Assembly (NCBI RefSeq): GCF_963676935.1
Contig: NZ_OY781470.1
Location: 2,328,680 to 2,392,679 of the forward strand
Origin: Halarcobacter sp.
Lineage (GTDB): Bacteria > Campylobacterota > Campylobacteria > Campylobacterales > Arcobacteraceae
Length of the DNA: 64,000 bases
Direction of reading: 5' to 3'
Shown here in pieces: positions 44,046 through 64,000 of this stretch. Every line of letters starts with the position of its first letter. Position 1 is the first letter of the stretch. The translations under genes and the position numbers were made by a program. A model generated the notes under the pieces. It saw nothing but the letters and a program-made list of their open reading frames with translations. It made no database searches and was not told the DNA's origin.

Positions 44046-44078
44046 TGCGATTAAACTGCGATTTTATTTAATTATATT
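44046..44078 (+). promoter_or_regulatory. Porin promoter: TGCGATT direct repeat plus -10
   Basis: TGCGATT-AAAC-TGCGATT (44046-44063, 11-bp period), then exactly 9 bp, then TATATT (44073-44078) as -10. The same element and spacing occur upstream of dmpQ and mdh. It is a predicted binding site for an OmpR-type response regulator. The predicted start is near 44085, giving a leader of about 90 nt. Confidence 0.6.
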
Positions 44079-47697: not shown

Positions 47698-48717
47698 CTA
47701 TTTATCCTTTTTATTTAAATTAAATTCATTTGCAAGTAACTCATAAGAATTTTTTCTATCTTCAAAAGAATAAGTTACATTTACAACCATTACTTCTTCA
47801 ACTTTATACTCATCTGCTAATTTTTCAATTTTTTCTTTACACTCTTTAGGTGTTCCTAAAACCATTGTATCCATAGTTTCATGGAAATAGATTTTATCTT
47901 CATATGAAAGCTCTTCGTATAACTTTTTTACTTTTTGGGGACTATGCAGTGCTTCTCTTTGCTTCCCTGTAAAAGCTTGAACTTTCCAATATGTATGACT
48001 ACTTGCTATGCTTTGTGCTTTTTCTTTCGTTTCAGCACAAATACAAGCAACAGCAATCATAGGTTTAGGTTTAGAGAATGTTTTTGAAGCTTTAAAACTT
48101 TTTCTATAATTATCCATAATAATTGTTGGTCTATCGTGTGTTCCAATAAATAAAGCCAAACAAAAACCAGCTCCAAGTTGTCCTGCTAAAATGGAACTTC
48201 CTTCACTTGAACCTAAAAGATACACAGGAGTTGATTCAACTCCTTTTGGACTTACTCCAACTCCATAAAAATAGTCATCCTCTTTAAAAGAATCATTTAA
48301 AAAGTTAGTTAAATCATATGCTTTATTTGCATAAGAATCATTACTTTGATTATGTAAAGCTCTTGCACTTAAAAAGTTAGCACCACTTGCTCTTCCAATA
48401 CCTAAATCAATCCTATTTTCATAAAGTGCATTTAATGTATTAAATTGCTCTGCAACTTTATAAGGACTATAATGGTTGAGCATAACACCACCACTTCCAA
48501 CTCTAATTTTAGATGTTGAACTTGCAACTGCACCAACCATTATTTCAGGAGTTGCACTTGCATAACCAGGAGTATCATGATGTTCTGCACACCAGTATCT
48601 ATAGTACCCCAATTTTTCACTAAGTCTTGCAAGTTCTATCGTATCATGAAGTCCAGTTTTAGGCTCTTTATTATCATGAACTGGAGATTGATCTAATACA
48701 CTTAATTTTAAACTCAT
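47698..48717 (-). CDS. Luciferase-like (LLM class) flavin-dependent oxidoreductase
   Basis: A 339-residue TIM-barrel protein of the bacterial luciferase-like family. It has KLSVLDQSPV at the N-terminus, RYWCAEHHDTPGYASATPEI (conserved EHH), IRVGSGGVMLNHYSPYKVAEQF (split) and DLGIGRASG. These match the MsnO8-type LLM oxidoreductases that use FMN or F420. It is inserted between dmpI and dmpD with no intergenic gap on either side and is clearly part of the operon. No such step exists in the standard phenol pathway, so its substrate is unknown. Confidence 0.88.
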   Translation of the reverse strand: MSLKLSVLDQSPVHDNKEPKTGLHDTIELARLSEKLGYYRYWCAEHHDTPGYASATPEIMVGAVASSTSKIRVGSGGVMLNHYSPYKVAEQFNTLNALYENRIDLGIGRASGANFLSARALHNQSNDSYANKAYDLTNFLNDSFKEDDYFYGVGVSPKGVESTPVYLLGSSEGSSILAGQLGAGFCLALFIGTHDRPTIIMDNYRKSFKASKTFSKPKPMIAVACICAETKEKAQSIASSHTYWKVQAFTGKQREALHSPQKVKKLYEELSYEDKIYFHETMDTMVLGTPKECKEKIEKLADEYKVEEVMVVNVTYSFEDRKNSYELLANEFNLNKKDK

Positions 48718-48909
48718 CTATTTCCCAAGTTTTTTAACACTATTTCCAGCTATACCATAATGTTGTTTTGGCATCTCATTTATGATAATTCTAACACTTT
48801 CAATTGGAGCATCAAGTGATTGAGAAATTGCTTGACTTACACTTTCAATAAGTTTCTCTTTTTTCTCATCACTTCTACCCTCAATAATATTTATTGTTGC
48901 AATTGGCAT
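48718..48909 (-). CDS. dmpI: 4-oxalocrotonate tautomerase
   Basis: A 63-residue tautomerase converting 2-hydroxymuconate to 2-oxo-3-hexenedioate. After Met removal the catalytic Pro1 is exposed (PIATINIIEGRSDE). Arg11 is in EGRSDE and Arg39 in ESVRIII. The hydrophobic active-site position near 50, Phe in Pseudomonas 4-OT, is Tyr (KQHYGIAGN). Length and motifs are otherwise those of 4-OT. It has a good AAAGGA ribosome-binding site and follows a hairpin-rich spacer after dmpH. Confidence 0.96.
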   Translation of the reverse strand: MPIATINIIEGRSDEKKEKLIESVSQAISQSLDAPIESVRIIINEMPKQHYGIAGNSVKKLGK

Positions 48910-49038
48910 AAAATAATCCTTTTAAAATGTCCCCTTATAAAAGGGACTATACTTTTTATAACTACTTTTTAGTGATAAAAAGTAGTTTGTGGTTACACTC
49001 TCTTTGAGAAAACTCTAAAGGGCTAAATAAATTTAGCC
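48910..49038 (-). promoter_or_regulatory. Hairpin-rich spacer inside the catechol operon
   Basis: The only sizeable gap between dmpQ and dmpD. It contains three stems: GGCTAAAT-AA-ATTTAGCC (49021-49038) just after the dmpH stop, AACTACTTTTT-N6-AAAAAGTAGTT (48960-48970 with 48977-48987, perfect 11 bp) and GTCCC/GGGAC (48929-48947). It is likely a processing or attenuation site dividing the operon into dmpQ-H and dmpI-D segments. Confidence 0.5.
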
Positions 49039-49827
49039 TTATACAAACTTCATTGATAATGTTCCTAAGTCTTGAAACTTAACTGTAACATTATCCCCTT
49101 TTTTGACACTCATTGCTGCTGTAATTGCTCCTGAAAGAATATATGATCCAGCTTTTAAGGTCTCGCCTCTTTCACTCATCATATTGGCAAGCATCGCAAT
49201 TGCAGTTGCTGGATGTCCTAAAACAGCAGCACCTGCTCCTAATTGTACAATCTCACCATTGATTTCCATTACTACACCAAGAGTTTTTAAATCTAAATCT
49301 TTAACATCTCTCATTCTTCCGCCTGTTACATATCTAGAAGATGAAGAGTTATCTGCAATTACTGATTTTAAATCAAATTTAAAATCTTTATATCTTGAAT
49401 CAATAATTTCCACAGCAGGCATTACAAAATCAGTTGCAGCTAATACATCACCAATATGACAACCAGGACCATTTAAATCATCCTTTAAAACAAAAGCAAT
49501 CTCAGCTTCAACTTTTGGATGAATTAATTCATCAATTTTAATCTCTGCACCATCTCCAAAGCTAAAATAATCAGCTAAATATCCATAACAAGGATTTGGA
49601 ACACCCATTTGCTTCATTTTTGTTTGAGAAGTTAATCCCATTTTCATACCAACTATTTTTGTACCTCTTGCTTCTTTAGCAGCTCTTGCCGTCCACTGAA
49701 TATCATAAGCATCCTCATAAGTCATCTCAGGATAATCATCAGTAATTTTTGTAATCTCTTGTGCATTTAACTCTGCATCTTCACAATGTTTTGCTAATTT
49801 TTCAATTGTTGCTTTATCTAATGCCAT
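49039..49827 (-). CDS. dmpH: 2-oxo-3-hexenedioate (4-oxalocrotonate) decarboxylase
   Basis: Metal-dependent decarboxylase of the fumarylacetoacetase-like hydratase/decarboxylase fold. It converts 2-oxo-3-hexenedioate to 2-hydroxypenta-2,4-dienoate. The 262 residues follow DmpH closely: CEDAELNAQEITKITDDYPE, KIVGMKMGLTSQTKMKQMGV, LIHPKVEAEIAFVL, VEIIDSRYKDFKF and ADNSSSSRYVTGGRM. These blocks separate it from its paralogue DmpE encoded 2 kb upstream. It normally forms a complex with DmpE. Its start overlaps the dmpG stop by 1 bp. Confidence 0.94.
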   Translation of the reverse strand: MALDKATIEKLAKHCEDAELNAQEITKITDDYPEMTYEDAYDIQWTARAAKEARGTKIVGMKMGLTSQTKMKQMGVPNPCYGYLADYFSFGDGAEIKIDELIHPKVEAEIAFVLKDDLNGPGCHIGDVLAATDFVMPAVEIIDSRYKDFKFDLKSVIADNSSSSRYVTGGRMRDVKDLDLKTLGVVMEINGEIVQLGAGAAVLGHPATAIAMLANMMSERGETLKAGSYILSGAITAAMSVKKGDNVTVKFQDLGTLSMKFV

Positions 49828-50855
49828 TATAATAATCCTTTTGCTTTTGCTAATTCCATTGCACAGTCATCAATCATATCTTCTTGACCACCGATCATTC
49901 CTCTTTTCCCTAACTCAACTAAAATAGTTCTAGCATCAATACCATATTTTGCTTCTGCTCTTTGTGCAAAAAGTAAAAATGAAGAGTAAACACCAGCATA
50001 ACCTAAAGTCAAAGAATCTCTAGAGATTCTAGTTGGTTTCCCCATAATTGGCAATGCAATATCTTCAGCTGCATCTTCAATTTTATTTAAATCAATTCCA
50101 GTTTCAATACCCATTCTTTGACAGACTGCTACTAAAACCTCTGTTGCAGTATTTCCAGAACCTGCTCCAAAACCAGCTAAACTTGCATCAATTCTAGTTG
50201 CACCTGCTTCAATAGCAGCAAGTGAATTTGCTACCCCCATAGACATATTATTATGACCATGAAATCCTAGTTCAATATCATTTCCAAACTCTTTTTTAAG
50301 TGCACCTATTCTTGCACTAACATCATCAGGTAACATATGTCCAGCTGAATCTGTTGCATAAATTGTTGTAGCTCCATATGAAACCATCTTAGCTGCTTCT
50401 TCAACAATTCTTTCAGGATTTACCATATGAGCCATCATCAAAAATCCAACTGTGTCAATTCCCATAGATTTTGCTGCTTTTATATGTTGAGCTGAACAAT
50501 CTGCTTCTGTACAATGAGTTGCTACTCTAACCATTGAAGCACCATGTTCTACAGCACTTTCTAAATCTTTTACTATCCCAATTCCTGGAAGCATTAAAAC
50601 TGAAATCTTTGCATTTTTCATATGTGGTACAACTGCGTCTAACCACTCTTCATTTGTATGTCTTCCAAAACCATAATTTAAAGAACTACCACCTAAACCA
50701 TCTCCATGAGTAACCTCAATAAATGGAACTCCTGCATTATCCATAGCAGTTGACATATTTGTCATCTCTTCAAGTGAGAACTGATGTCTAATAGAGTGCA
50801 TCCCATCTCTTAATGACATATCATGAATTTTGATTTTTTTACCTTTTAAATCCAT
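49827..50855 (-). CDS. dmpG: 4-hydroxy-2-oxovalerate aldolase
   Basis: HMGL-like TIM-barrel aldolase that splits 4-hydroxy-2-oxovalerate into pyruvate and acetaldehyde. The 342 residues have the metal-site motif [17 protein letters not shown] at the N-terminus, [19 protein letters not shown] and the C-terminal communication domain ([20 protein letters not shown]) that docks DmpF for acetaldehyde channelling. AGGAG precedes the ATG. It is adjacent to dmpF, as in other meta operons. Confidence 0.97.
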
Positions 50856-50856
50856 C

Positions 50857-51741
50857 TTATTCTCCTTTTATCTTATCTGCCATTTGTTCAGCAATATTAA
50901 CAGCTGCTGCTGTAATAATGTCTAAGTTACCAGCATATTTTGGTAAATAATCCCCTAAACCTTCAATCTCTAACCAAATAGAGATTTTTTTACCATCAAA
51001 AACTGGACCATTTTTAAGTGTATATCCAGGTATAATCTTTTGCATTTTTGCAACCATATCATGAATAGATTTTGTAATTGCTTCTACATCTGGTTCCTCT
51101 GTAGTCAAACAATGAATTGTATCTCTCATCATTAAAGGTGGCTCAGCAGGATTTAAAATGATAATTGCCTTTCCTTTTTTTGCCTTTCCAACAACTTCAA
51201 TTCCAAGTTTAGTTGTTTCAGTAAACTCATCAATATTTGCTCTAGTACCAGGACCTGCAGATTTTGAAGCAGCTGTTGCAATAATCTCTGCATATTCAAC
51301 CTCTTGAACACCTGAAACAGCTGCAACCATAGGAATAGTAGCTTGCCCACCACAAGTTACTGTGTTAACATTCTGTGTATTTTTAGCTAATAGCTCTTGC
51401 AAATTTACAGAAGGCACACAAAATGGCCCAATAGCAGCAGGTGTTAAGTCAATAACTAATACACCTTTTTCAGCAAGTTTTCTATTATTTTCACCATGAA
51501 CATAAGCTGAAGTTGCATCAAATGCAATTTTAATTTCATCTTTTTCAATATGTTCTAATAATCCATCAACACCCTCATATGTAGTTTTCAAACCATTTTC
51601 TCTGGCCATTTTAAGACCCCTAGAACCTTCATTAATTCCAACCATCCACATTGGATTTAATATTTCACTTCTTTTCATTTTAATCATTAAATCAAGTCCA
51701 ATATTACCTGGACCAATTAATGCACAATTAATTTTTTTCAT
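50857..51741 (-). CDS. dmpF: Acetaldehyde dehydrogenase (acylating)
   Basis: Converts acetaldehyde channelled from DmpG to acetyl-CoA with NAD+ and CoA. The 294 residues begin [18 protein letters not shown] (NAD-binding GxGxIG), carry the catalytic cysteine in [15 protein letters not shown], and [19 protein letters not shown]. Two ATGs lie in tandem (51742-51744 and 51739-51741). AAGGA is 5 bp from the second, so 51741 is preferred. The further 20-codon frame extension to 51804 has no match to the family and overlaps dmpE; I reject it. Confidence 0.95.
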
Positions 51742-51766
51742 CATTATCCTTAAAAAATGTCCATAT

Positions 51767-52561
51767 TTATACGAATCTACAAGAAGCAGATCCAATTCCA
51801 CCAATATTAATAGTCATATTATCCCCTGGTTCTATTGTTACCATAGCACAAAGTGCTCCTGATAAAATCACTTCACCAGCTTTAAGGCCTACACCAAATT
51901 CACCTAAAGTATTAGCTAACCATGCTACAGCATTTACTGGACTTCCAAGAGCTGCAGCTCCTGCTCCTGTATGTAATAACTCCCCATTTCTTTCTAGAGT
52001 AATTCCACAAGTTGTTAAATCCACTTCTCTTGGATCAACTCCTTTGCCACCAAATACTATATATCCACAAGAAGCATTATCTGCAACTGTATCTTGAATT
52101 TTTATTTTCCAATCTTTAATTCTTGAATCTACAATTTCAAAGCAAGGCATTACAAATTTTGTTGCTTTTAATACATCAGCAGTAGTTACTCCTGGACCTT
52201 GTAAATCCTCTTTTAAAACAAAGGCAATTTCACCCTCAGCTTTTGGTTGAATCATTCCATTTGTTACATCAATTTCATCACCATCAGAATAAATCATATC
52301 AGATAAAAGGTATCCAAAATCTGGTTGATGAACACCTAACATATCCATTACAACTTTTGAAGTAACACCAATTTTTTTACCAATAATCTTACTTTCGTCA
52401 TCATTCATTCTTCTTTTTAAAAAGTGATGTTGAATTGTATATGCATCTTCAATTGTAGAATCAGGTTCTCTATTTGAGATTGGTTCAATTGAGTAGTTAC
52501 CCTTTAAAGCCTCATATAATTCATTTCCGTATTTTTCAATTTTTTCTTGAGTCATTGCCAT
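51767..52561 (-). CDS. dmpE: 2-hydroxypenta-2,4-dienoate (2-oxopent-4-enoate) hydratase
   Basis: Hydrates the dienoate to 4-hydroxy-2-oxovalerate. The 264 residues show [71 protein letters not shown] and [14 protein letters not shown], the DmpE/XylJ signatures that distinguish it from DmpH. It probably associates with DmpH. The start at 52561 has AGAGAGA at correct spacing; a start 12 codons further up would overlap dmpC and lacks a ribosome-binding site. Confidence 0.95.
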
Positions 52562-52581
52562 AAAATAATCTCTCTTTCTAT

Positions 52582-54039
52582 TTACATTTTTATACAAACA
52601 TTTTTTAATTCAGTATAGAACTCTAGTGAGTAATGACCACCTTCTCTTCCTATACCAGAACCTTTCATTCCACCAAATGGTGTTCTTAAATCCCTTAAAA
52701 ACCATGAATTAATCCAAACTATCCCTGAATCAATTTGAGCTGCAACTCTATGAGCTTTATCAAGGTTCTCAGTAAATATTGTTGATGCCAATCCATAATC
52801 TGTATCGTTTGCTAATCTAATAGCTTCATCTTCACTATCAAAAGGAGTAACATGACAACAAGGTCCAAATACTTCCTCTTTAATTACTGTTGCCGTTTCA
52901 GGTAATCCTGTCCAAATAGTTGGTTCAACAAAGAAACCATTTGCTAAATCACCTTCCATTTTAGGAGCACCTCCACCAAGAATCACATTCGCACCCTCTT
53001 TTTTCGCGATTTCATAATACTTTAATACTTTATCTCTATGAGCAGCACTTACAACAGGTCCCATATCCACAGATTCATCATTGTGAATACCAAGTTTTAA
53101 TTTTGAACCAGCTTCTTTAAGTCTTGAGACAAACTCATCAAAAATTGATCTTTCAACATAAACTCTTTCTGTACCCAAACATACTTGTCCAGAGTTTGCA
53201 AATACCGATCTTGCTGTCTCATTAATAGCTTTATCCATATCACAATCAGCAAAAATAATTGCTGGGTTTTTACCACCAAGTTCTAAAGATACATCTCTAA
53301 CACCTTTAGAACAAGCATTCATAATCATCTCACCAGTTTTAGTTTCACCTGTAAATGTTATTGCATCAACATCTTTATGAGCTGTTAAAAGATTTCCCGT
53401 AATAGAACCTTTACCTTGAACAACGTTATATGCTCCTGCTGGAACACCAACTTTTGACATTACTTCACCAAGTAATGATGTAGTTGTAGGAGTAACTTGT
53501 GATGGTTTAACAATAACAGAGTTACCACAAGCTAAAGCAGGACCAACTTTCCAAGTCATCAATAACAATGGTAGATTCCAAGGAGAAATAACTGCAATTA
53601 CACCTTTAGGTTTTCTTACACTGTAGTTAAACATTTTTTTACCATCTGGAGTATCAGCTCTGTATGCCTCTTCTGCATGAGATTTCATAGTATCAGCAAA
53701 TACTTTGAAATTTGCGGCACCCCTTGGAATATCTATATGTCTAGCAATTTTATAAGGTTTCCCCGTATCTAAACATTCTGCCTCTAAGAAATCGTCAAAT
53801 CTTCTATCAATTTCATTTGCAATTTCGTACATCATTGCAATTCTGTCATTTAATTTCATTTGACCCCATTCACCTGTAAGTGATGCCTTTGCAGCAGCAA
53901 CTGCAGCATTTACTTCTTCTTCTCTACCAAGGGCAACTTTTGATAAAAGTTTTCCATCCATTGGGTTAATATTATCAAAGAACTCTCCACAAGCAGAGTC
54001 AATAAATTTTCCATTAATATAGTGTTGTACTTTATTCAT
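52582..54039 (-). CDS. dmpC: 2-hydroxymuconic semialdehyde dehydrogenase
   Basis: NAD+-dependent aldehyde dehydrogenase oxidising the catechol ring-cleavage product to 2-hydroxymuconate, the main (oxalocrotonate) branch. The 485 residues have the ALDH blocks VISPWNLPLLLMTWKVGPAL, TFTGETKTGEMI (cofactor site), LELGGKNPAIIF (general base Glu), NSGQVCLGTERVYV (catalytic Cys) and KEEVFGPCCHVTPFD. The N-terminus HYINGKFIDSACGEFF is typical of DmpC/XylG. Its start overlaps the end of the HbpS-like gene by 8 bp. Confidence 0.96.
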   Translation of the reverse strand: MNKVQHYINGKFIDSACGEFFDNINPMDGKLLSKVALGREEEVNAAVAAAKASLTGEWGQMKLNDRIAMMYEIANEIDRRFDDFLEAECLDTGKPYKIARHIDIPRGAANFKVFADTMKSHAEEAYRADTPDGKKMFNYSVRKPKGVIAVISPWNLPLLLMTWKVGPALACGNSVIVKPSQVTPTTTSLLGEVMSKVGVPAGAYNVVQGKGSITGNLLTAHKDVDAITFTGETKTGEMIMNACSKGVRDVSLELGGKNPAIIFADCDMDKAINETARSVFANSGQVCLGTERVYVERSIFDEFVSRLKEAGSKLKLGIHNDESVDMGPVVSAAHRDKVLKYYEIAKKEGANVILGGGAPKMEGDLANGFFVEPTIWTGLPETATVIKEEVFGPCCHVTPFDSEDEAIRLANDTDYGLASTIFTENLDKAHRVAAQIDSGIVWINSWFLRDLRTPFGGMKGSGIGREGGHYSLEFYTELKNVCIKM

Positions 54040-54466
54040 ATCTTAATCCTATTTCATTAATTGCATATTTTGCACAAATAATATCTTCTTCTTCTGTTCC
54101 ACCTGAAACACCAATTGCTCCTACTTTAATACCATTTTCAAAAATCGGCATCCCTCCTCCAAAAGGAATTAATCTATCCCTATTTGAAAAACCTTGTTCC
54201 AAATGAGGCATACTTTTGAAAATTGTAGTCCAAGTGTCAGTTGTAAAACCAAAACTAGCACTTGTATAAGCTTTATCCTTTGCAATATCAATTGAATGAA
54301 TAAATGAATTCTCCATTCTTAAAAAAGCCATTTCTAAACCTTTATTATCTACTACTGAAACATTAATAGAGATATTTAATTCTTCAGCTTTTTTTATTGC
54401 AAAAAGACAAGCATCCATTGATGCTTGTCTAGAAATAGTTTTTTCAGTTATTGTTACTGAACTCAT
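54032..54466 (-). CDS. GlcG/HbpS-family protein (haem-binding-like)
   Basis: A 144-residue single-domain DUF336 protein. It has the pattern ACLFAIKKAEELNISINVSVVD (split), DKAYTSASFGFTTDTW, LIPFGGGMPIFENGIKVGAIGVSGGTEEED (split) and AKYAINEI typical of GlcG/HbpS. Family members bind haem or are found beside catabolic oxygenases; a catalytic role is not established. Here it lies between the dioxygenase and the semialdehyde dehydrogenase genes, 9 bp from the former and overlapping the latter. This suggests a dedicated role such as iron or haem handling, or help with a ring-cleavage product. Confidence 0.8.
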   Translation of the reverse strand: MSSVTITEKTISRQASMDACLFAIKKAEELNISINVSVVDNKGLEMAFLRMENSFIHSIDIAKDKAYTSASFGFTTDTWTTIFKSMPHLEQGFSNRDRLIPFGGGMPIFENGIKVGAIGVSGGTEEEDIICAKYAINEIGLRYE

Positions 54467-54475
54467 TTAATAATC

Positions 54476-55423
54476 CTACTTATACGCGGACAAGGTATAT
54501 GCAGTTGTAAATGCACCATTTTCTTGACCAGTATGATAGAAAATACCTCTCCATAATTCATCTTCTGTCCAAGTAACTGTTGGCATATCTTTACAAACCA
54601 TATATCCAAGTCCAGCAAAAGTCTCAAGTCTATGCCCAGATGGGTCAAAGAAATAAATAGTCTCACCTCTTGTGATACCATGTCTTTGTGGAGTAATATC
54701 AAGTTTAACGTTATACATTGCCATTACATCAGCAGCTCTTAAAATATCATTCCATCCATCTAAGAAAAATGCAAAATGATGCATTCCAGTTTCAGGACCA
54801 GCAACAAATGCTAAATCATGTGGTGTATTTCCCGCACTCAACCAAGTTGCAGCTTGTAATGAACCTTCAGGTCCAACGCATACTTGTTCAGCTAATTTAA
54901 AATCAAAAACCTCTTCTATAAATTTAGTAGATTCCATTACTTTTTCTGGACCTTCACACATTAATAAAATATGGTCAATCCAATGAGCTTTAATTCCATT
55001 TTCATGAATTGGCCAAGGCACAGGATTAATATGTCCAACTTTTTTACCAACAAAAGTTTTTTCAGCATATAAATTAAATTCATGTCCGCTTGGAGTAAAA
55101 AACTTTAATACTCTTCCACACTCAGCTACTTCACCAGCAGGTAACATCTCTGTTGAAATTCCATAAGCTTCAATTTTTCCTTGTAATTCATCTAAAGCTT
55201 CTTCACTTTCAACTTTATAACCAACCTTATTATATGTAGCCTCTTCACTAGGTCTAAGAATTAGACTATATTTATCCCACTCATCCCAACATTTTAGATA
55301 TAAAGTTCCATCGGCATCTTCTCTTGTAACTTCCATTCCCATGATTTCAACATAGTATTTTCTAGATTTATTAATATCTAAAACGTTGATATCAACGTGC
55401 CCAATTCTCATAATTTTGCTCAT
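54476..55423 (-). CDS. dmpB: Catechol 2,3-dioxygenase
   Basis: Extradiol ring-cleavage dioxygenase of the two-domain vicinal oxygen chelate family, giving 2-hydroxymuconic semialdehyde from catechol. The 315 residues are close to XylE/DmpB (307). The iron ligands are visible as His in HWIDHILLMCEGP, His in TGMHHFAFFLDGW and Glu in SGHRLETFAGLGY. The neighbouring acid-base His/Tyr are also present (ITPQRHGITRGETIYFFDPSGH, split). It follows the ferredoxin gene by 20 bp and has a strong AAAGGGG ribosome-binding site. Confidence 0.97.
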   Translation of the reverse strand: MSKIMRIGHVDINVLDINKSRKYYVEIMGMEVTREDADGTLYLKCWDEWDKYSLILRPSEEATYNKVGYKVESEEALDELQGKIEAYGISTEMLPAGEVAECGRVLKFFTPSGHEFNLYAEKTFVGKKVGHINPVPWPIHENGIKAHWIDHILLMCEGPEKVMESTKFIEEVFDFKLAEQVCVGPEGSLQAATWLSAGNTPHDLAFVAGPETGMHHFAFFLDGWNDILRAADVMAMYNVKLDITPQRHGITRGETIYFFDPSGHRLETFAGLGYMVCKDMPTVTWTEDELWRGIFYHTGQENGAFTTAYTLSAYK

Positions 55424-55443: not shown

Positions 55444-55773
55444 TTAGTTTTTTTGCCCAAGAAAATAGGCTTGTTTACCTGACTTACTTGTCATAACTTT
55501 TGGTAAAAATTCAATCTCCATATCACTTAGAGAATAAACCCGACATGCTAAGAAAATATTATCCCATTCATCTTTTATAGATATATGTTTTCTATTCATC
55601 TTTGCAGTTCTAAATTCTCCTTTGTGTACTTTGATTCTACACAACCCACACGCACCATTATGGCAAGCTTTTGGGACCAAATCTTCACAAACGTACAAAC
55701 CATCCATCAAATTTTTGTTATCAAAACATTTTTGAACTTGGTTTTTATTTTTAACAAGAATTTCGTGTTTCAA
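55444..55773 (-). CDS. dmpQ: Plant-type [2Fe-2S] ferredoxin, DmpQ/XylT-like
   Basis: A 109-residue ferredoxin. Cluster cysteines occur as CHNGACGLC with the fourth in FLACRVYS. XylT/DmpQ re-reduces catechol 2,3-dioxygenase after oxidative inactivation of its iron, and this gene sits directly upstream of dmpB as expected. There is no ATG. Two TTG codons compete (55777-55779 and 55771-55773). AAGGA lies 6 bp before the second and directly abuts the first, so the start at 55773 is preferred. It is the first gene of the catechol operon. Confidence 0.9.
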   Translation of the reverse strand: MKHEILVKNKNQVQKCFDNKNLMDGLYVCEDLVPKACHNGACGLCRIKVHKGEFRTAKMNRKHISIKDEWDNIFLACRVYSLSDMEIEFLPKVMTSKSGKQAYFLGQKN

Positions 55774-55822
55774 AAACAATCCTTTTTTTGATTTAAAAAG
55801 CTTCCACTTTTTAACTTTTAAA

Positions 55823-55855
55823 ACTTTACTTTAAAAAATTCGCAGAATAATCGCA
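55823..55855 (-). promoter_or_regulatory. Catechol-operon promoter with TGCGATT-type direct repeat
   Basis: Minus-strand TGCGATTATTCTGCGAAT (55855 to 55838; two 7-mers with 11-bp period) is followed by 9 bp and a -10-like TAAAGT (55828 to 55823). The predicted start is near 55816, about 43 nt before the dmpQ start. The weak -10 fits an activator-dependent promoter. It matches the porin and mdh elements in sequence and geometry. Confidence 0.65.
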
Positions 55856-55888: not shown

Positions 55889-56824
55889 TTACTTAGAACT
55901 TTCTTCTAACTTTTCAATTAATGTTTTAACTGAACTAACTGATTTAGAAAACTCACTTTTTTCAATATCATTTAACTCTTTTTCAATAATTGTTTCAGCA
56001 CCATTTTTACCTAAAACAACAGGAACACCAATCACAACATCTTTATGACCATACTCTCCATCTAACTTCATAGCACATGGAAAAATTTCTTTTTTATCTT
56101 TCAAAATAGCCTCCACCATTAATGCTGTAGAATTGGCAGGAGCATAATAAGCAGAACCTGTCTGCAATAGTTTAACTATCTCTATACCACCATTCTTTGT
56201 TTTTTCTACAATCTCAGATATCTCTTTATCATTTAAAAAATCTTTTAGTGGTTTGTCATCTACAGTAGTTGAATTTATAAGTGGAATCATTTCATCTCCA
56301 TGACCACCTAAAACCAATGTTTTTATATTTTTAGGGCCTACTTTTTCTTTTATAAAATGACACAGCCTTGAAGTATCAAGGACTCCAGCCATTCCAAGAA
56401 TTTTATTTCTTTTCCATTTCGAAGCTTTTAATGCCCAGTAAACCATTGCATCAAGAGGGTTAGATACAATTATGATAATTGCATTTTCATTGTATTTAAT
56501 AACATTTTTTACAATAGAAGTCATGATTTTTGCATTTGTAAATAGTAAATCATCTCTACTCATGTTAGGTTTTCTAGGAATACCTGCAGTGATCACAACG
56601 ATATCGCAATCACAAAAATCTTCATCATTTGAAATAGCTTTTACTATTGTTTTTGAATTAATACAACTTACTGCTTGAGAGATATCTAATGCCATAGCTT
56701 GCGTAAAGTTATCTCTAATATCTTTTAATAAAATACAATCACACAAGTTTTTCATAACAAGTGTAAATGCTAAAGTTGAACCAACATTTCCAACACCAAC
56801 TATACCTACTTTTTTTTTCTTCAA
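55889..56824 (-). CDS. mdh: NAD-dependent malate dehydrogenase
   Basis: A 311-residue lactate/malate dehydrogenase-fold enzyme. It has GIVGVGNVGSTLAFTL (NAD site), ITAGIPRKPNMSRDDLL (the first Arg of PRKPNMSR is the malate-selective position; lactate enzymes have Gln), VSNPLDAMVY, GMAGVLDTSRL and LGGHGDEMIPL (catalytic His). The upstream ATG (56890) lies above the predicted transcription start and has no ribosome-binding site. TTG at 56824 has AAGGA 7 bp upstream and starts directly at the fold, so I chose it. It may support TCA flux from acetyl-CoA produced by the pathway. Confidence 0.9.
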   Translation of the reverse strand: MKKKKVGIVGVGNVGSTLAFTLVMKNLCDCILLKDIRDNFTQAMALDISQAVSCINSKTIVKAISNDEDFCDCDIVVITAGIPRKPNMSRDDLLFTNAKIMTSIVKNVIKYNENAIIIIVSNPLDAMVYWALKASKWKRNKILGMAGVLDTSRLCHFIKEKVGPKNIKTLVLGGHGDEMIPLINSTTVDDKPLKDFLNDKEISEIVEKTKNGGIEIVKLLQTGSAYYAPANSTALMVEAILKDKKEIFPCAMKLDGEYGHKDVVIGVPVVLGKNGAETIIEKELNDIEKSEFSKSVSSVKTLIEKLEESSK

Positions 56825-56848
56825 TCTAAATTCCTTCAATCTAAATTC
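56819..56848. repeat. 15-bp tandem duplication at the mdh start
   Basis: CTTCAATCTAAATTC is repeated exactly twice in tandem (56819-56833, 56834-56848). On the minus strand it duplicates the GAATTTAGATTGAAG start region, giving two in-frame TTG candidates, at 56824 and 56839. The second copy supplies AAGGA to the 56824 start. Confidence 0.8.
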
Positions 56849-56853
56849 TTTTA

Positions 56854-56886
56854 AGTATATAAGAAAATATTCGCGAAATAATCGCT
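56854..56886 (-). promoter_or_regulatory. mdh promoter with TGCGATT-type direct repeat
   Basis: Minus-strand AGCGATTATTTCGCGAAT (56886 to 56869), then 9 bp, then TATACT (56859 to 56854). Predicted start near 56847. This is the third copy of the element; the site also lies 28 bp upstream of the divergent kinase promoter's -10, so autoregulation is possible. Confidence 0.6.
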
Positions 56887-56910
56887 TCATTTAATTAAAA
56901 ATTTTTTATA

Positions 56911-56919
56911 TGTTATAAT
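56911..56919 (+). promoter_or_regulatory. Extended -10 of the sensor kinase/regulator operon
   Basis: TGTTATAAT, a perfect extended -10, gives a start near 56926 just ahead of a GAGGTGGGGAA ribosome-binding sequence and the kinase ATG. It suggests constitutive expression of the two-component pair. Confidence 0.55.
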
Positions 56920-56937: not shown

Positions 56938-58230
56938 ATGATAGATGTAAGAAAAAAGATTTTTGATTTAAAAAGAATAGCAAGTAAATTTTCTTTAATT
57001 TATGTGGTTATTGGAGTAGTTGGATTAATCTCTTTAGATAGTTTAGTTAGTGCATACTCTATTAACAAAAATTTAGAAGTTCAAAGCCCATTTATTTATG
57101 GTGTTTTCTTTATAGTATTTACTGGAATAATACTTTATTTAATGATAAGTCACATGCAAAATGTTATAAAAAATATTGATAAAGCATATAAGGAACTAAA
57201 GAAAAAAGAGAAAGATAGATTAGCCCCTTACGAATTTGCTCTTGATCATTCTGTTGATGCTATTCACTGGTTTACTTTAGATGGAAAATATATTTATGTA
57301 AATGAGGCTACATGTAAAATGGATGGTTATTCAAAAGAAGAATTTGAAGAATTATATTTAGAGGATATTGACCCAAATTTTACAAGAGAAACTGCAATTA
57401 CTTGTATGAAAGATATAGAAAAAACGCCAAATTGGAGGTTAGAATCAATCCATAAAAGAAAAGATGGGTCAACCTATCCTGTGGAGGTTTCAGGTCATGC
57501 TTTTACTTACAATGGCAAAAAATATATTTGTGCTTTTGCTAGAGATATGACAAAAAGAATTGAAAGTAGAAAAAAAATCACAAATATGAATGAAGAGTTA
57601 CAAAAATCTGTAAAAGAAAAAGAGATTTTATTAAAAGAGATTCACCATAGGGTTAAAAACAATATGGAAATAATTTCATCACTTCTTAATATGCAAGCAA
57701 ACAAATCTGATGATTTGAAATTTAAAGAAGCAATGAAAGAGAGTAGAAGTAAAATTCATGCAATGGCGCTTGTTCATGAATTTTTATATCTTGGTGAAAA
57801 TCTAGCTTATATAAATGTAAATGAATATATCGAAAGATTGATTGATGATATTACTGAATTATATGAATTTAGTAATACACAAATAGATTATGACTTAAAT
57901 ATTGACAAATTAGAGTTTTCTATAAATAGATGTATACAAGTTGGAATGCTTTTACATGAACTTTGTGTAAATGCATTTAAATACGCTTTTAGTGAAGAAA
58001 AAAGAAATCTCTTATGTGTACATATGAAACTTGTTGAAGATGAAATTCATATGAAAATCAGAGATAATGGAGAAGGATTAAAAGATTTAACAAAGTTAGA
58101 TAAAGCAGATTCAATTGGTATGCAACTTATCCATTCTATTGTTGATTTTCAATTACATGGAACAATTAACTTTAAAAACAATAATGGTCTTGAATGTGAT
58201 ATTATCTTTCCACAAAAGGAGGTTAAGTAA
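56938..58230 (+). CDS. Membrane histidine kinase with cytoplasmic PAS and HisKA_2 domain
   Basis: A 430-residue kinase. TM1 (about 17-40) and TM2 (about 51-72) are joined by a loop of only about ten residues, so it has no periplasmic sensor. A PAS domain spans about 95-207 (FALDHSVDAIHWFTLDGKYI, YICAFARDMTKR). The HisKA_2 phospho-acceptor is in KEIHHRVKNNMEI (His237, or 236), and HATPase with LHELCVNAFKYAF and IRDNGEGLKDL follows. Sensing is therefore probably cytoplasmic or intramembrane. Its stop overlaps the regulator start (TAATG). It sits between the catechol and phenol blocks, so it is the probable effector sensor for both. Confidence 0.92.
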   Translation: MIDVRKKIFDLKRIASKFSLIYVVIGVVGLISLDSLVSAYSINKNLEVQSPFIYGVFFIVFTGIILYLMISHMQNVIKNIDKAYKELKKKEKDRLAPYEFALDHSVDAIHWFTLDGKYIYVNEATCKMDGYSKEEFEELYLEDIDPNFTRETAITCMKDIEKTPNWRLESIHKRKDGSTYPVEVSGHAFTYNGKKYICAFARDMTKRIESRKKITNMNEELQKSVKEKEILLKEIHHRVKNNMEIISSLLNMQANKSDDLKFKEAMKESRSKIHAMALVHEFLYLGENLAYINVNEYIERLIDDITELYEFSNTQIDYDLNIDKLEFSINRCIQVGMLLHELCVNAFKYAFSEEKRNLLCVHMKLVEDEIHMKIRDNGEGLKDLTKLDKADSIGMQLIHSIVDFQLHGTINFKNNNGLECDIIFPQKEVK

Positions 58231-58991
58231 TGAGTAAAACAAAAATTTTAATAATAGAAGATGAACCAATAATTGCCTTAAACCTAAAACAAGTATTGAC
58301 TGAACTTGGGTATGAACCTTGTGGCATTTCAAATAATAGATGCAATACAATAAAACTTTTAGAAGAAAAAATCAAACCTGACTTGGTTCTTATGGATATC
58401 TATTTGCAAGGTCCAACTACAGGAATAGAATTAGCAAAAGAATTAAGAAAAAATCAACTTCCAGATGTACCTGTAATTTTTTTAACTGCTAATTCAGAAC
58501 TTGCTACAATTAAAGAAGCCTCTGAATCTTTTGCATATGGATATTTAATTAAACCATATAAAAAAAGTCATCTGCAAGCAGCAATAGAGGTTGCCTTAAA
58601 AAAGGCAGAAGAGGATAATAAAAATAAGTTTGATTTAAATGCAGTTAAAAATGTAAATAGAACTTTGGAACACAAATTGTCCCTTGATATTGAAACTAAA
58701 TCTAGAACTATAAAACTAAAATATGGTTATCTTTTTGATAAAGAGAAAGAGGTTTTATATTTCGGGGATGAGCCTGTAAAACTAACTTCAAAAGAGATAA
58801 AAATCATAAAAGTTCTATGCCAAACACCAGGACAAAATGTTTCTCAAGAGCAATTAGAATATGCGATTTGGCAAGATGAACCAGCTGGATATGCTGCTTT
58901 TAGATCACTTCTATTTAGACTTAGAAATAAAATTCACAAAGATTTAATAATAAATCAAAACAATACAGGATACAAAATAGAGTTACTTTAA
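58230..58991 (+). CDS. Response regulator with OmpR/PhoB-type winged helix
   Basis: A 253-residue regulator. The receiver domain is at about 4-125, with acidic pocket IIEDEP, phospho-acceptor Asp56 in LVLMDIYLQ, Thr86 in VIFLTANSE and Lys108 in YLIKPYKK. The C-terminal winged helix (about 165-253) shows VKLTSKEIKIIKVLCQTPGQ, SQEQLEYAIWQ and the recognition-helix region FRSLLFRLRNKIHKDLIINQ. OmpR-type domains bind tandem direct repeats about one helical turn apart. This fits the 11-bp-period repeats found upstream of dmpQ, mdh and the porin. A long linker separates the two domains. Confidence 0.92.
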   Translation: MSKTKILIIEDEPIIALNLKQVLTELGYEPCGISNNRCNTIKLLEEKIKPDLVLMDIYLQGPTTGIELAKELRKNQLPDVPVIFLTANSELATIKEASESFAYGYLIKPYKKSHLQAAIEVALKKAEEDNKNKFDLNAVKNVNRTLEHKLSLDIETKSRTIKLKYGYLFDKEKEVLYFGDEPVKLTSKEIKIIKVLCQTPGQNVSQEQLEYAIWQDEPAGYAAFRSLLFRLRNKIHKDLIINQNNTGYKIELL

Positions 58992-59926: not shown

Positions 59927-60985
59927 TTATAATGATCTAAATAATGGACTTCTTTGGTTATCTCCACTTAAATCTGCTTTCGAAAAAAACTTTTCTATAT
60001 GAATATCTCTTTCATATAATCTCCCTCTCATTAATACTGTAATACAAGAATCAAGCATAGCAGGTGGCCCACATAAATATGCCTTATGATTAGAAAAGTC
60101 ATTATCATAGGTTTTAATTGCTACATCATTTAAATAACCAGTTTCACCACTCCAATTTTCTAAATTATCACCTGAGAGGACTGGAATATATCTAAAGTTT
60201 TCATGCTCTTTTTCTAATTTTTTAAAAAGTGAAGAATAATATAATTCATCTTCATTTCTTGCTCCATGAAATAAAGTAATTGGTAAATCACATCCCCTTT
60301 GCAATAAATCTTCAATCATAGATTTGGGACTTGAAAGTCCTGAACCACCAGCGAAAAACATCATAGGTTTTTGAGCTGATTCTTTTACAAAAAATCTTCC
60401 AAATGGACCTGTAATTTTAAATTCATCTCCAATTTTACAATTTTGGTGAATTAAAGGTGTTACTTCACCATCATTAACTAAAGAGATATTTAACTCTATT
60501 GTTTTAGTATCTTTTGGTGATGTAGCTATTGAAAAAGCTCTTGGTTCTTCAAATCCTGGCATATAAAATTGCACATACTGACCAGCTTGAAAATCAATCT
60601 CTTCATTTAACTCTAAAACTATCCCTTTTATTCTAGGGGTTAAATCTTTTATTTCAATAACTTTCCCCTTAAAATCTTTAACTGGAATTGTTCTAGCATC
60701 TTCATCTTCATCTATATCAGCTTCAATTGCACAATCTTCTTTCAAAGTTGAAGTACAAGCTAAACATTTTCCTTCATCTCTTTCCATATCCATTAGTGCA
60801 AAAGGTGAAGCTTCCCCATGGTCAATTTCACCTTCTAAAAGTTCAATCTTGCACGTTCCACATAAACCATGGTTACATGCATGGGGTAGATATACCCCTT
60901 GCCTTAATGCAGCATCAAGGATTGTTTGTCCCTCTTCCACCTCAACAACATCTCCAGTTGGTTCAATCTCTAATGTATAACTCAT
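59927..60985 (-). CDS. dmpP: Phenol hydroxylase reductase component (P5)
   Basis: Transfers electrons from NADH through FAD and a [2Fe-2S] centre to the oxygenase. The 352 residues contain an N-terminal plant-type ferredoxin domain (CNHGLCGTC with fourth Cys in KCLACTST), a FAD-binding barrel (EEPRAFSIATSP, the RxxS flavin motif) and a NAD domain (MMFFAGGSGLSSPKSM, KAYLCGPPAMLDS). The length matches DmpP. Its start lies 1 bp after the dmpO stop. Confidence 0.97.
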   Translation of the reverse strand: MSYTLEIEPTGDVVEVEEGQTILDAALRQGVYLPHACNHGLCGTCKIELLEGEIDHGEASPFALMDMERDEGKCLACTSTLKEDCAIEADIDEDEDARTIPVKDFKGKVIEIKDLTPRIKGIVLELNEEIDFQAGQYVQFYMPGFEEPRAFSIATSPKDTKTIELNISLVNDGEVTPLIHQNCKIGDEFKITGPFGRFFVKESAQKPMMFFAGGSGLSSPKSMIEDLLQRGCDLPITLFHGARNEDELYYSSLFKKLEKEHENFRYIPVLSGDNLENWSGETGYLNDVAIKTYDNDFSNHKAYLCGPPAMLDSCITVLMRGRLYERDIHIEKFFSKADLSGDNQRSPLFRSL

Positions 60986-60986
60986 C

Positions 60987-61352
60987 TTACATTCCTAAAC
61001 CGTTTAATCCCTTTAGAGTTGGCGTTTCAAACTGTATTAATGATTTATGGTCAATGCCATTCTCTTCTAAAGACTTTTCTTTTTGTGGGTTAAATGGTTC
61101 ACCATTTAACTGCCAATTTATCTGCGTAGTATCCCAATCAAGTTTTTCAAAATCTGGGTGATCTTTGAAACAACTTGGAAGTACATCATTTAACAATGCA
61201 TTAAAAGGCATTGCAGGTGGTAAAGGAAAAGCCATAGCTGAATTTATCATTCTATGTTTATCCCATCCTACATAAACTACAATATTACCATGAAAATTTT
61301 CTACTACATCCCTTGTCTTTGGGTTATAATCTCCAATATGTTTTGTTGCCAT
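60987..61352 (-). CDS. dmpO: Phenol hydroxylase component P4
   Basis: A small 121-residue oxygenase subunit of the (alpha-beta-gamma)2 hydroxylase. It is the gamma-type subunit in toluene/phenol diiron hydroxylases. Family blocks: IGDYNPKTRDVVENFHGNIV, YVGWDKHRMINSAMAFPLPP, PFNALLNDVLPSCFKDHPDF and WQLNGEPFNPQ. AGGAG lies 6 bp before the ATG. It lies between dmpN and dmpP in canonical order. Confidence 0.95.
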   Translation of the reverse strand: MATKHIGDYNPKTRDVVENFHGNIVVYVGWDKHRMINSAMAFPLPPAMPFNALLNDVLPSCFKDHPDFEKLDWDTTQINWQLNGEPFNPQKEKSLEENGIDHKSLIQFETPTLKGLNGLGM

Positions 61353-61361
61353 TTTTACTCC

Positions 61362-62882
61362 TTATGATTGACCATGCCAAGATTTAAATGCTGCTTCATC
61401 TTGTGAACCAACAAAGTCACAGTTGTCTTGTCCAAATTTAACTTTATACCAGTCTAAAACTTCAGGTAATGTTGCCCCACCACAATTTCCTTGGAAAATT
61501 TGATGTACTGGTAACCAAGAATATACATACTTTTCTGGCTCATTTTCAAAAATTTCTTTACAGTGGTCTGAACAGAAATGATATCTTTCACCTTTATATT
61601 TACCCTGCTTATGAACATATTGCATTGGATCATCTTTTTCAACTTCTGTAAATAACATTGGTACTTGACATACTTGACAAAGTTGAGGTAGCATCTCAGA
61701 ATAATATCTATTTCCCTCTTCTTCTCTTTTTTTCCAATGTTCATAAATTGGTCTATAGTATTTATCAAAAGTATTTGGATACTTTTGGCTTAACCAGTCC
61801 ATTTTTTCCTCACTAGGAATCCATGTATGCATAGCTGCTGGTGCAGCATGAGTATATAATGTTAACCACACTTGATGAGACAAATGCTCTTTTTCGGCTG
61901 CAACAGTACCTGTACATTCTGGAACTTTGATACCGTATCTTTCTAAATCTTTAAATAATCCAACAGTATTTTCTTCAAAATATAATTCCCATGCTTCTTT
62001 CCATGATTGTGGAGATTCAGGTAACATATAATCCATCATAGCTGCAACTAATGCTAAAACTCTATAACCTCTCCAAGTCCATTTATCAATCCATTTTTGA
62101 ACAATAGGAACATTATCTGGGTCTTGTTCTAACATAAATTTAATAGCTTGAAGACCTAAAGTCATATGTCTTGCTTCATCACTTTGTGCTGAAAAACCAA
62201 AGGTTACAGTTGCCATATCTCCATTATATGCTGCACCACTCATAAATGGTACAAATAGAAGGTTAGTTAATACATATTCAAATGAAAAACCAATAGCAAT
62301 CATAAATTCAAATGGTCCAGCTGACCTTGCATCATCAAAAAATGATTTAGGAACAGATAAATACCATACTCTATCATGCCAATGTGAAAATTCAGAGAAT
62401 CCATTAAAATACTTATTATAATGACTTAATGTATGTATTTGAGTTTGAGCATGTCTTAATTCATCAATTGATTGCATTTGACAAGCAACTCTTGGACCAT
62501 CACCTCTAAAGTTTCTTGCAACATGTGCAAAACCTCTATTTGCTTGATATTCAAGTGGCGTTACACCTTGTAAAAATAGTTTCAATGCTGATACATATCT
62601 TGCATCAGAAATATTTTTTTGTCCATGGTTTTGTGCAAATGCATCTATAATTGCATATAGTTTTTTATCTTTTTCCCCTTGATATTTCCAATATGCATCC
62701 ATTGTCATTCTAAATGGATCTTCCCAAGCTTCCCAATCATGAATCTTAATACCCTCATATTTATCATAAGGAAAAACCTTGTCCATATCTTGATAAGTAG
62801 TTTCCCATCCAAGCCTTGTCATATGCTTGTACTTATCCTTCATACTTAATCTTTTTTTTCTTTTTTTAATATCCATAGTCAT
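61362..62882 (-). CDS. dmpN: Phenol hydroxylase large oxygenase component (P3)
   Basis: Diiron catalytic subunit that ortho-hydroxylates phenol to catechol. The 506 residues show the four-helix-bundle iron ligands in ExxH pairs, SIDELRHAQTQIH and SAQSDEARHMTLG, plus RGFAHVARNFRGDGP and MLPESPQSWKEAWELYF (split). A late cysteine-containing block (LCQVCQVPMLF, HFCSDHCKEIFENEP) is the YHS-like C-terminal element of DmpN/TouA-type subunits. AGGAG precedes the ATG at 62882. The length is slightly below the Pseudomonas DmpN (517). Confidence 0.97.
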   Translation of the reverse strand: MTMDIKKRKKRLSMKDKYKHMTRLGWETTYQDMDKVFPYDKYEGIKIHDWEAWEDPFRMTMDAYWKYQGEKDKKLYAIIDAFAQNHGQKNISDARYVSALKLFLQGVTPLEYQANRGFAHVARNFRGDGPRVACQMQSIDELRHAQTQIHTLSHYNKYFNGFSEFSHWHDRVWYLSVPKSFFDDARSAGPFEFMIAIGFSFEYVLTNLLFVPFMSGAAYNGDMATVTFGFSAQSDEARHMTLGLQAIKFMLEQDPDNVPIVQKWIDKWTWRGYRVLALVAAMMDYMLPESPQSWKEAWELYFEENTVGLFKDLERYGIKVPECTGTVAAEKEHLSHQVWLTLYTHAAPAAMHTWIPSEEKMDWLSQKYPNTFDKYYRPIYEHWKKREEEGNRYYSEMLPQLCQVCQVPMLFTEVEKDDPMQYVHKQGKYKGERYHFCSDHCKEIFENEPEKYVYSWLPVHQIFQGNCGGATLPEVLDWYKVKFGQDNCDFVGSQDEAAFKSWHGQS

Positions 62883-62891
62883 AATAAGCTC

Positions 62892-63167
62892 CTAATTATC
62901 CCAATAAATTATAAAATGATCATAATCTTCATCAACATTTCCAGCAAGAGTGATTAAACAAAGTTGTAACTCTTGAGGATCCCATTCTCTTCCTATAATC
63001 TCTTCCATAGTTTCAGCATTTATTACTAATCTGTCAGGACAAGTAATTCTAATCATTGCAGGTTGGTTTTCAACTATCGCATTTATATTATCTTTTTGCA
63101 CTGCTTGAACTATTGGTCTTGCCTCTTCTACATCTTGAAGAACTAAAAGTACATTATTCTCTGCCAT
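62892..63167 (-). CDS. dmpM: Phenol hydroxylase effector protein (P2)
   Basis: A 91-residue cofactor-free coupling protein that docks on the oxygenase and gates its activity (MmoB/DmpM family). The sequence VLLVLQDVEEARPIVQAVQK, DRLVINAETMEEIIGREWDP and LQLCLITLAGNVDEDYDHFI (each shortened) matches DmpM throughout. AGGAG lies 6 bp before the ATG. It sits in canonical order between dmpL and dmpN. Confidence 0.96.
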   Translation of the reverse strand: MAENNVLLVLQDVEEARPIVQAVQKDNINAIVENQPAMIRITCPDRLVINAETMEEIIGREWDPQELQLCLITLAGNVDEDYDHFIIYWDN

Positions 63168-63175
63168 ATTCTCTC

Positions 63176-64000
63176 CTATAATTCTAAACCGTTTTTATTC
63201 AAACGTTTTATTAAATTTTCTTTTATTTCACTAACAATATTTTCTGGGTCATTTACTAAATTTTTTGCCAATAATATAGTTGCTTTTTCCAACTCACTAA
63301 TGTACTTTTCACACCACTTAGTAATAATTTTTTTATTTTCATCTGATTCACTTACGGCAACATTGATAGTTTTATCTACCCATTTATTTGATTCATCAAA
63401 CCAAACAGTCATAAATTCTGTCATCATACTTTGAATATTTCCACCTTTAGTAGCAATCTCTCTTTCATAGTAATCAAAAAATAAAGGATGAATAAATCCA
63501 TCCATTACAACGTTTTGGAAAATAAAAAGTTCAAACCAATCTTCAACAACAAAAGAATCTTCAACAACTTTTCTTAGTCCTTGCCAAGAAGTTTCATTTA
63601 CCCATAAATCTTTTGCTTCATCTAAAAATTTTGCTTCATTTTCTCCTAACAATAGACCAATTTTTGTTATATATTGAGCCATACCTAATCTATCTTCAGA
63701 ATGAAATGTAGCTGCATTAGCCATTGCCGCACCATAACATTCAGATACAATCTGTAGATTATTCATGTTTGCACCCCACTCATAGTGTCTTAAAGGTACT
63801 ACATATTTTAAAATCTGTTCTTTTATATCTTGTGGCATTGTAATTAAAAGGTCTCTTCTTTCGATAAACGAAAAGTTTTGTTCTGCAACTTCTTGTTGTT
63901 TTGCCCTTGTAATAACATAGTTTGAATAGTAATACTGTCTTGGATCTAAAAATTTATACCAATCAGACATTTTTATTGCTGTTTTATTTTCATCATATAT
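63176..64000 (-). CDS. dmpL: Phenol hydroxylase P1 (beta) subunit, 5' end beyond the window
   Basis: Beta-type oxygenase subunit, structurally like the alpha subunit but lacking the diiron site. An ATG at 63970 would give 264 residues, but the family has about 330. The ten in-frame codons above it, up to the window edge, continue the family match: ENKTAIKMSDWYKFLDPRQ aligns with DmpL TAIRMQDWYAVTDPRQ from memory. The gene therefore continues past 64000 and lacks roughly 55-60 N-terminal residues here. Family blocks seen are AEQNFSFIERRDLLITMP, PLRHYEWGANMNN, DRLGMAQYITKIGLLLG and WQGLRKVVEDSFVVEDWFEL (split). Confidence 0.94.
   Translation of the reverse strand: MYDENKTAIKMSDWYKFLDPRQYYYSNYVITRAKQQEVAEQNFSFIERRDLLITMPQDIKEQILKYVVPLRHYEWGANMNNLQIVSECYGAAMANAATFHSEDRLGMAQYITKIGLLLGENEAKFLDEAKDLWVNETSWQGLRKVVEDSFVVEDWFELFIFQNVVMDGFIHPLFFDYYEREIATKGGNIQSMMTEFMTVWFDESNKWVDKTINVAVSESDENKKIITKWCEKYISELEKATILLAKNLVNDPENIVSEIKENLIKRLNKNGLEL

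Follow-up and report, generated by a model that had tools for sequence, protein, structure and literature searches.

A direct-repeat element as the candidate operator of a two-component phenol regulon in Halarcobacter and its relatives

The phenol gene cluster and its repeat elements

The window, the whole stretch of 64,000 nucleotides of Halarcobacter sp. DNA analysed here, holds genes for phenol catabolism on its minus strand. These are the phenol hydroxylase operon (dmpP, O, N, M and L; 59927-64000), in which dmpL and dmpK extend past the window, and the meta-cleavage operon. The first gene of the latter encodes a DmpQ-like 2Fe-2S ferredoxin (55444-55779). It is joined by a run of genes (46876-55423) comprising dmpB, an HbpS-like gene, dmpC, E, F, G and H, a luciferase-like oxidoreductase gene and dmpD, in an order that is kept in relatives. 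A malate dehydrogenase-like gene, mdh, lies on the same strand (55889-56809; NF004863, 379 bits against a cut-off of 283) and adjoins plus-strand genes for a sensor histidine kinase (56938-58230) and a response regulator, RR1 (58230-58991). A porin gene of the Opr/OprD type completes the candidate regulon members of the window (44177-45400, plus strand).

An 18-bp element made of two 7-mers at an 11-bp period (consensus NGCGAWT-N4-NRCGAWT) precedes three of these transcription units. Ahead of the meta-pathway operon, the candidate dmpQ operator TGCGATT-N4-TGCGAAT (55838-55855, minus strand) ends 9 bp before the -10 hexamer TAAAGT (55823-55828, minus strand), the whole reading TGCGATTATTCTGCGAAT-tttttaaag-TAAAGT. 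The candidate mdh operator AGCGATT-N4-CGCGAAT (56869-56886, minus strand) is common to mdh and the divergent kinase gene; 9 bp past it stands TATACT (56854-56859, minus strand), in AGCGATTATTTCGCGAAT-attttctta-TATACT. On the plus strand, the candidate porin operator TGCGATT-N4-TGCGATT (44046-44063) is followed at the same distance by TATATT (44073-44078), in TGCGATTAAACTGCGATT-ttatttaat-TATATT. Strand, period and gap to the -10 are all as the original prediction had given them. That prediction also expected a copy upstream of dmpL, beyond position 64000, and one was found, with the same geometry, ahead of dmpK, with which the hydroxylase operon begins (TGCGATATTTTTGCGATA-ttgtttatt-TAAAGT; G000:C1:2393180-2393212, minus strand, with the operator at about 64516-64533 in extended window coordinates). 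A fifth, TGCGATTTTTTAACGATT-ttttttcta-TATAAT, lies just outside the window ahead of a short-chain dehydrogenase (SDR) gene. The arrangement of 18-mer, 9 bp and -10 is identical at all five sites. Their targets include the genes for phenol hydroxylase (Phenol_Hydrox, 242.7 bits) and catechol 2,3-dioxygenase (extradiol dioxygenase domains), and the occurrence of elements of one geometry at cluster genes supports the proposal of a co-regulated phenol gene set. The longest mdh reading frame begins upstream of its proposed -10 (56854-56859; region 56810-56890), so the true mdh start codon has to lie further downstream.

Such copies had been judged unlikely to arise by chance, and their rarity in the genome agrees. 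GCGATTN5GCGAWT has three exact matches in 3,108,161 bases, namely the dmpQ, mdh and porin sites, and an order-2 Markov model of the window (28.5% GC) gave none in four simulated 3.1-Mb genomes. With two mismatches allowed, three were found in the window against 2.07 expected from shuffling it, and the case therefore rests on the exact matches and on comparison. A genome-wide scan of the kind originally suggested, run with a composite pattern of repeat, spacer and -10, gave five exact matches, all ahead of cluster genes: dmpK, dmpQ, mdh, porin and SDR. Because this pattern was derived from those five sites themselves, its strength lies in the lack of any further exact match and in the relatives. 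The one-mismatch genome matches that were inspected all lie inside open reading frames, except for the SDR site, a real fifth site; the remaining weak matches were dropped as elements because those inspected were inside reading frames.

Conservation in the Arcobacter family

We scanned 104 Arcobacter-family genomes with GCGATN6GCGAWN10TANNNT, taking an identity of at least 69% to define a regulator orthologue. The pattern occurs in all 24 genomes with an orthologue versus 4 of the 80 without (Fisher p ~1e-19, shared ancestry not being corrected for), and two of the four exceptions, G017 and G095, are fragmented genomes that still hold part of the cluster. The family matches in G043 and G071 look like chance and were set aside. 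A reversed control pattern found two matches in all across the same 104 genomes.

The geometry is strictly kept. Among the promoters of five gene classes in family relatives, 89 of 97 have the repeat, and same-strand GCGAW words in this promoter set are spaced by 11 bp in 77 of 79 cases. TANNNT stands exactly 9 bp past every one of 90 repeats, against a background of 0.043 per position; the 30 repeats out of reach of the fetching pattern also all have a -10 at 9 bp. Sites recur at the dmpQ/dmpB promoters of 20 relatives and at the porin in 24. Flanks and -10-to-start distances vary among these relatives, and the spacing from repeat to -10 stays constant. In G042, the hydroxylase genes and dmpB lie ~110 kb apart, with the porin and regulator genes on other contigs; each target nonetheless retains its element. 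Regulator and catabolic genes are almost always inherited together in the family, so that their co-occurrence by itself would be compatible with another cluster-linked factor as well. No other cluster-linked regulatory factor was seen among the reading frames between the porin and SDR genes.

Several relatives carry variants of this arrangement. A prephenate dehydratase gene, mostly beside the porin gene, has its own element in several of them (for example AGCGATTTTTTTACGATT-tttttcctg-TATAGT; L105 11261 in G002, L108 7522 in G006, L109 14419 in G022, L110 8380 in G034 and L096 9192 in G011), which suggests a link from aromatic amino acid synthesis to the regulon. Repeats beside the duplicate kinase/regulator pair precede an operon for a periplasmic binding protein and a branched-chain-type ABC transporter (L073 14385 and 14473 in G061, L076 15130 in G034, L089 16598 in G022, L084 6474 in G096). 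AATAAT replaces TANNNT at 9 bp there, and the operon is a possible uptake system with a shifted -10. In G060 (L072 17611 and 17741), mdh is missing and its operator still stands beside that of dmpQ in a tandem arrangement, which looks like loss of the gene with retention of its promoter. Two systems are decaying: G011 (L096) retains a truncated regulator and the dehydrogenase site without phenol hydroxylase, and in G232 (L250 8380-8961) the regulator is interrupted by a stop and the sites are weakened. G005 (L090 2114) has an element at a second, divergent hydroxylase-like operon (27% to DmpN).

Other Campylobacterales families

The element also stands at phenol or p-cresol-type genes in eight genomes of other families that have an intact, distant regulator (43-51% identical where measured). 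In G318 and G138, whose regulator is ~50% identical, an operon for cytochrome c and a flavoprotein has elements ahead of it, and so does an aldehyde dehydrogenase gene. The best solved relative of the flavoprotein is p-cresol methylhydroxylase (1dii, E 1e-216). Neighbours of the p-cresol-type genes encode PobA (617.6 bits, cut-off 538.7), a LigB-type dioxygenase and 4-oxalomesaconate tautomerase (486.4 bits, cut-off 440), the enzymes that would be expected to lead from p-cresol to cleavage of the ring. G349, G280, G444, G454 and G218 likewise have homologous regulators, and elements at p-cresol- or phenol-type genes. Another-family genome, G429, has a dmp cluster with a kinase/regulator pair 48% and 51% identical, a porin and a dehydrogenase with the element, and a dmpK promoter of unchanged geometry, AGCGACTTTAAAGCGATT-taaaaaatg-TACAAT; its orthologue was missed by the order-level regulator search and found by reading the cluster directly.

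Many order-level pattern matches were attributed to chance in more GC-rich DNA, and only AT-rich matches near regulator genes were retained. A scan of genome contigs with the regulator alignment returned mostly unrelated regulators, owing to conserved peptides common to many receivers. TGCGAT repeats of the TGCGATRTGTTTGCGATR type, with the 9-bp geometry, occur at a quite different response-regulator gene (23% identical) in G404 (L133 ~8439-8489 and 12600), G242 (L136 8652) and G360 (L138 8797). The half-site is therefore not wholly exclusive to the clade of RR1 and its second copy RR2, and another regulator clade may use a similar one.

Two two-component systems in one genome

The kinase gene of the window encodes a HisKA_2 domain (89.2 bits, cut-off 22.3), a PAS_9 domain (41.7 bits) and two hydrophobic stretches; its HATPase matches in Pfam are weak and below cut-off. 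By hydropathy, there is little between the two hydrophobic stretches and the PAS domain comes after them, a layout suited to a sensor that detects a membrane-permeant compound in the cell interior or in the membrane itself. The Pfam matches of RR1 are Response_reg (78.6 bits, cut-off 30.2) and Trans_reg_C (41.8 bits, cut-off 26.2) alone, and the receiver residues E10, D11, D56, T86 and K108 are invariant in alignment A1. Receiver, Trans_reg_C domain and the ~11-bp tandem repeats at the -35 position that RR1 would bind all place it in the OmpR/PhoB family. It is no PhoB equivalog by TIGR02154 (78.7 bits against a cut-off of 296.2).

A second kinase/regulator pair lies just past the window, flanked by the hydroxylase operon and the SDR gene, and its regulator, RR2, is 70% identical to RR1. 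In the regulator tree, the window-type copies of nine genomes and one further copy from G061 form one clade (100/98 support), nested within the radiation of the other copy. The RR2 type is present in nearly all relatives and is the type found in genomes with a single pair. By this comparison, RR1 is evidently an accessory duplicate linked to mdh, and RR2 the ancestral, near-universal copy. Genomes with RR2 only retain elements at dmpK, dmpQ/dmpB and the porin, and mostly at SDR also. The two regulators have almost the same recognition helix (AGYAAFRSxLFRLRxKxHKDLI), so RR1 and RR2 should, and most likely do, bind the same elements. The original prediction had named the product of 58230-58991 as the binder. 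An OmpR/PhoB-type operator of two 11-bp repeats at the -35 position speaks for that assignment, with the amendment that RR1 is probably neither the only binder nor the original one, given the near-universal RR2 and the elements kept in RR2-only genomes.

The AlphaFold model of RR1 (mean pLDDT 84.8) consists of a receiver, a 46-residue helix (residues 112-157) and an OmpR-type winged helix, with domain placement made uncertain by a pTM of 0.54. The predicted helix linking receiver and DNA-binding domain is unusually long, and together with the receiver it is more like EutV than like the classical OmpR regulators. The best solved full-length matches are OmpR-family proteins, namely MtrA, KdpE with DNA and PrrA, together with PmrA, PhoP and CosR on DNA, and the first ~154 columns of the model align with EutV at 2.9 A. 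The partner of EutV is the HisKA_2 kinase EutW. With a HisKA_2 kinase on both sides and a EutV-like receiver and helix, RR1 looks in the model like a EutV-type receiver fused to an output domain of the OmpR type.

Promoter architecture and proposed mechanism

The two sides of the divergent region follow different rules. None of 90 catabolic promoters in the family has TGn before the -10, versus 24 of 24 divergent kinase promoters, and the lack of an extended -10 is as expected for activator-dependent promoters. In the window, the extended -10 of the kinase gene, TGTTATAAT (56911-56919, plus strand), lies exactly 27 bp from the mdh operator read in reverse. The distance from reversed element to TANNNT, with TGn, is the same at both kinase genes of the genome and, across the family, in all 24 kinase promoters, among which anything from 6 to 27 bp separates the -10 and the start codon. 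A fixed 27 bp in the face of such variation suggests that the kinase genes are autoregulated from a fixed operator position. Shared descent of the divergent kinase regions may contribute to this constancy, and outside the family the spacing differs (30 and 25 bp). According to the title of Petersen 2003 (cited in PMC3847290), Campylobacter sigma70 promoters have a periodic signal instead of a -35 box.

Control by a DmpR/XylR-type sigma54 activator was rejected. No XylR_N (PF06505) protein was found in the source genome, while plasmid pWW0, the positive control, scored 109 bits, and the six near-matches to sigma54 -24/-12 sites in the window are not above the 8.4 expected, with none at the catabolic promoters inside the window, which were the ones scanned. 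A catabolic regulon without such control, as originally proposed, accords with both results.

We consider it very probable that the element is the operator of a PAS/HisKA_2 kinase and OmpR-type regulator pair that controls phenol catabolism; binding, activation, ligand and autoregulation are our inferences from sequence. The kinase would detect a phenolic compound or a related signal. The phosphorylated regulator would then bind as a head-to-tail dimer over the -35 position, supply the missing -35 contact and recruit RNA polymerase to the plain -10, 9 bp downstream. One signal could in this way switch on the hydroxylase operon, the ring-cleavage operon, the uptake porin, mdh and the dehydrogenase. 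The kinase genes would have a basal extended -10 promoter that the regulator, sitting on the reversed element 27 bp away, can modulate. Two systems would operate side by side, an ancestral pair by the hydroxylase operon and a duplicate pair by mdh, and both regulators would most likely bind the same elements. We also lean, with more modest confidence, towards a wider reading: a two-component family across several Campylobacterota families would control phenolic catabolism (phenol and, in other families, p-cresol) via one operator serving two divergent promoters, with 9 bp between it and a plain activator-dependent -10 and, within the Arcobacter family, 27 bp between it and the extended kinase -10, through a regulator with a EutV-like receiver and long helix on an OmpR-type DNA-binding domain.

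Other readings were weighed against this operator model. RR1 alone might control the regulon, with RR2 serving another purpose, since RR1 is the copy within the window and its pair diverges from one of the elements. This is unlikely: elements persist at hydroxylase, ring-cleavage, porin and mostly dehydrogenase genes where RR2 is the only copy, the window copies are a single derived clade, and the two recognition helices hardly differ. We also find it improbable that the bound regulator represses, covering the -35 region and blocking polymerase until a signal releases it. The element does overlap the -35 position, a common seat of repressors, and BumR of Campylobacter represses or activates depending on the promoter (PMC11796366). 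However, promoters that have an operator in place of a -35 and no extended -10 (0/90) look too weak to need repression, and exact 9-bp phasing over 90 sites is expected for polymerase contact, not for simple blocking.

Fixed spacing to a -10 is a sigma-factor signature as well, and binding by the regulator itself is inferred, so the element could be read by another DNA-binding protein or by a cluster-linked alternative sigma factor. That seems distinctly unlikely, because the -10 is of the housekeeping type, the direct repeat has the 11-bp period seen for PhoB, the stretch from porin to SDR showed no further transcription factor, and distant regulators bring the same element into unrelated p-cresol-type clusters. 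The clusters are homologous, which makes sites at one gene non-independent between genomes and leaves room for chance or for neutral inheritance of functionless promoter sequence. Yet five unrelated promoters in one genome share an identical geometry with no exact match elsewhere, the spacing is constant amid varying flanks and -10-to-start distances, and the pattern recurs at other genes in genomes of other families; this explanation is scarcely credible. The operator model, with activation by either regulator, is preferred.

Outlook

Among control systems for aromatic catabolism, sigma54-dependent DmpR/XylR and those of the TodS/TodT type are the best known. A literature search, with most subscription journals outside its reach, returned no account of the present regulon and no paper joining Arcobacter and phenol hydroxylase. 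For phenolic catabolism in Campylobacterota, the comparison offers a defined candidate operator together with its target list and its probable regulator, and the set is kept from phenol pathways to those of the p-cresol type. A single site seems to be common to two regulators within one cell and to divergent ones in different families, so that simple gel shifts could put the co-evolution of regulator and operator to the test. With their phasing of 9 bp and 27 bp, the promoters are a clean natural data set on how activators act in bacteria where most promoters have no -35 box. Finally, the element may be worth trying as a part for phenol-responsive reporters.

Comparison with known systems

DmpR and XylR, the sigma54-dependent one-component enhancer-binding proteins of Pseudomonas dmp and xyl genes, serve the same kinds of target genes as the regulators proposed here and differ in belonging to that sigma54-dependent, one-component class. 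TodT and StyR have LuxR/NarL-type DNA-binding domains and work with multi-domain hybrid kinases, whereas the present regulator is OmpR-type, with no LuxR/NarL-type domain found in RR1 by Pfam, and its kinase is simple. What TodS/TodT and StyS/StyR share with the present systems is two-component control of aromatic catabolism with PAS sensing (PMC4861429; PMC2442086).

The closest operator architecture is that of PhoB, KdpE, PmrA and PhoP, with two 11-bp direct repeats ahead of a housekeeping -10; the pho box itself is 22 bp long and consists of two such repeats (PMC3978041). The RR1 model matches DNA-bound KdpE, PmrA and PhoP. Here, in contrast to PhoB-type systems, the half-site is TGCGATT, the stimulus would be another one, the kinase is HisKA_2 instead of HisKA, and the receiver is EutV-like with a long helix.

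Within the Campylobacterota, PceP of Sulfurospirillum (tetrachloroethene respiration) bound direct repeats overlapping the -35 in gel shifts, and the best match of PceS/PceP outside Sulfurospirillum is an Arcobacter pair with identities of 35% (kinase) and 46% (regulator) (PMC7755780). The likeness extends to an OmpR-type regulator adjoining the genes it controls and to repeats at the -35. PceP, however, serves another substrate, and its operator CTATW-N17-CTATW (22-bp period) does not fit the elements described here, which read TGCGAWT-N4-TGCGAWT. BumS/BumR of Campylobacter jejuni has a cytoplasmic PAS sensor that acts as a phosphatase in a response to branched short-chain fatty acids (PMC11796366). 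It resembles the present pairs as a Campylobacterota two-component system with a PAS sensor and differs in that phosphatase activity, cytoplasmic location and signal. EutV, for its part, ends in an RNA-binding ANTAR domain. EutW/EutV and the present pairs have a HisKA_2 kinase in common and are alike in receiver and long helix, to which EutV adds ANTAR and RR1 an OmpR-type DNA-binding domain.
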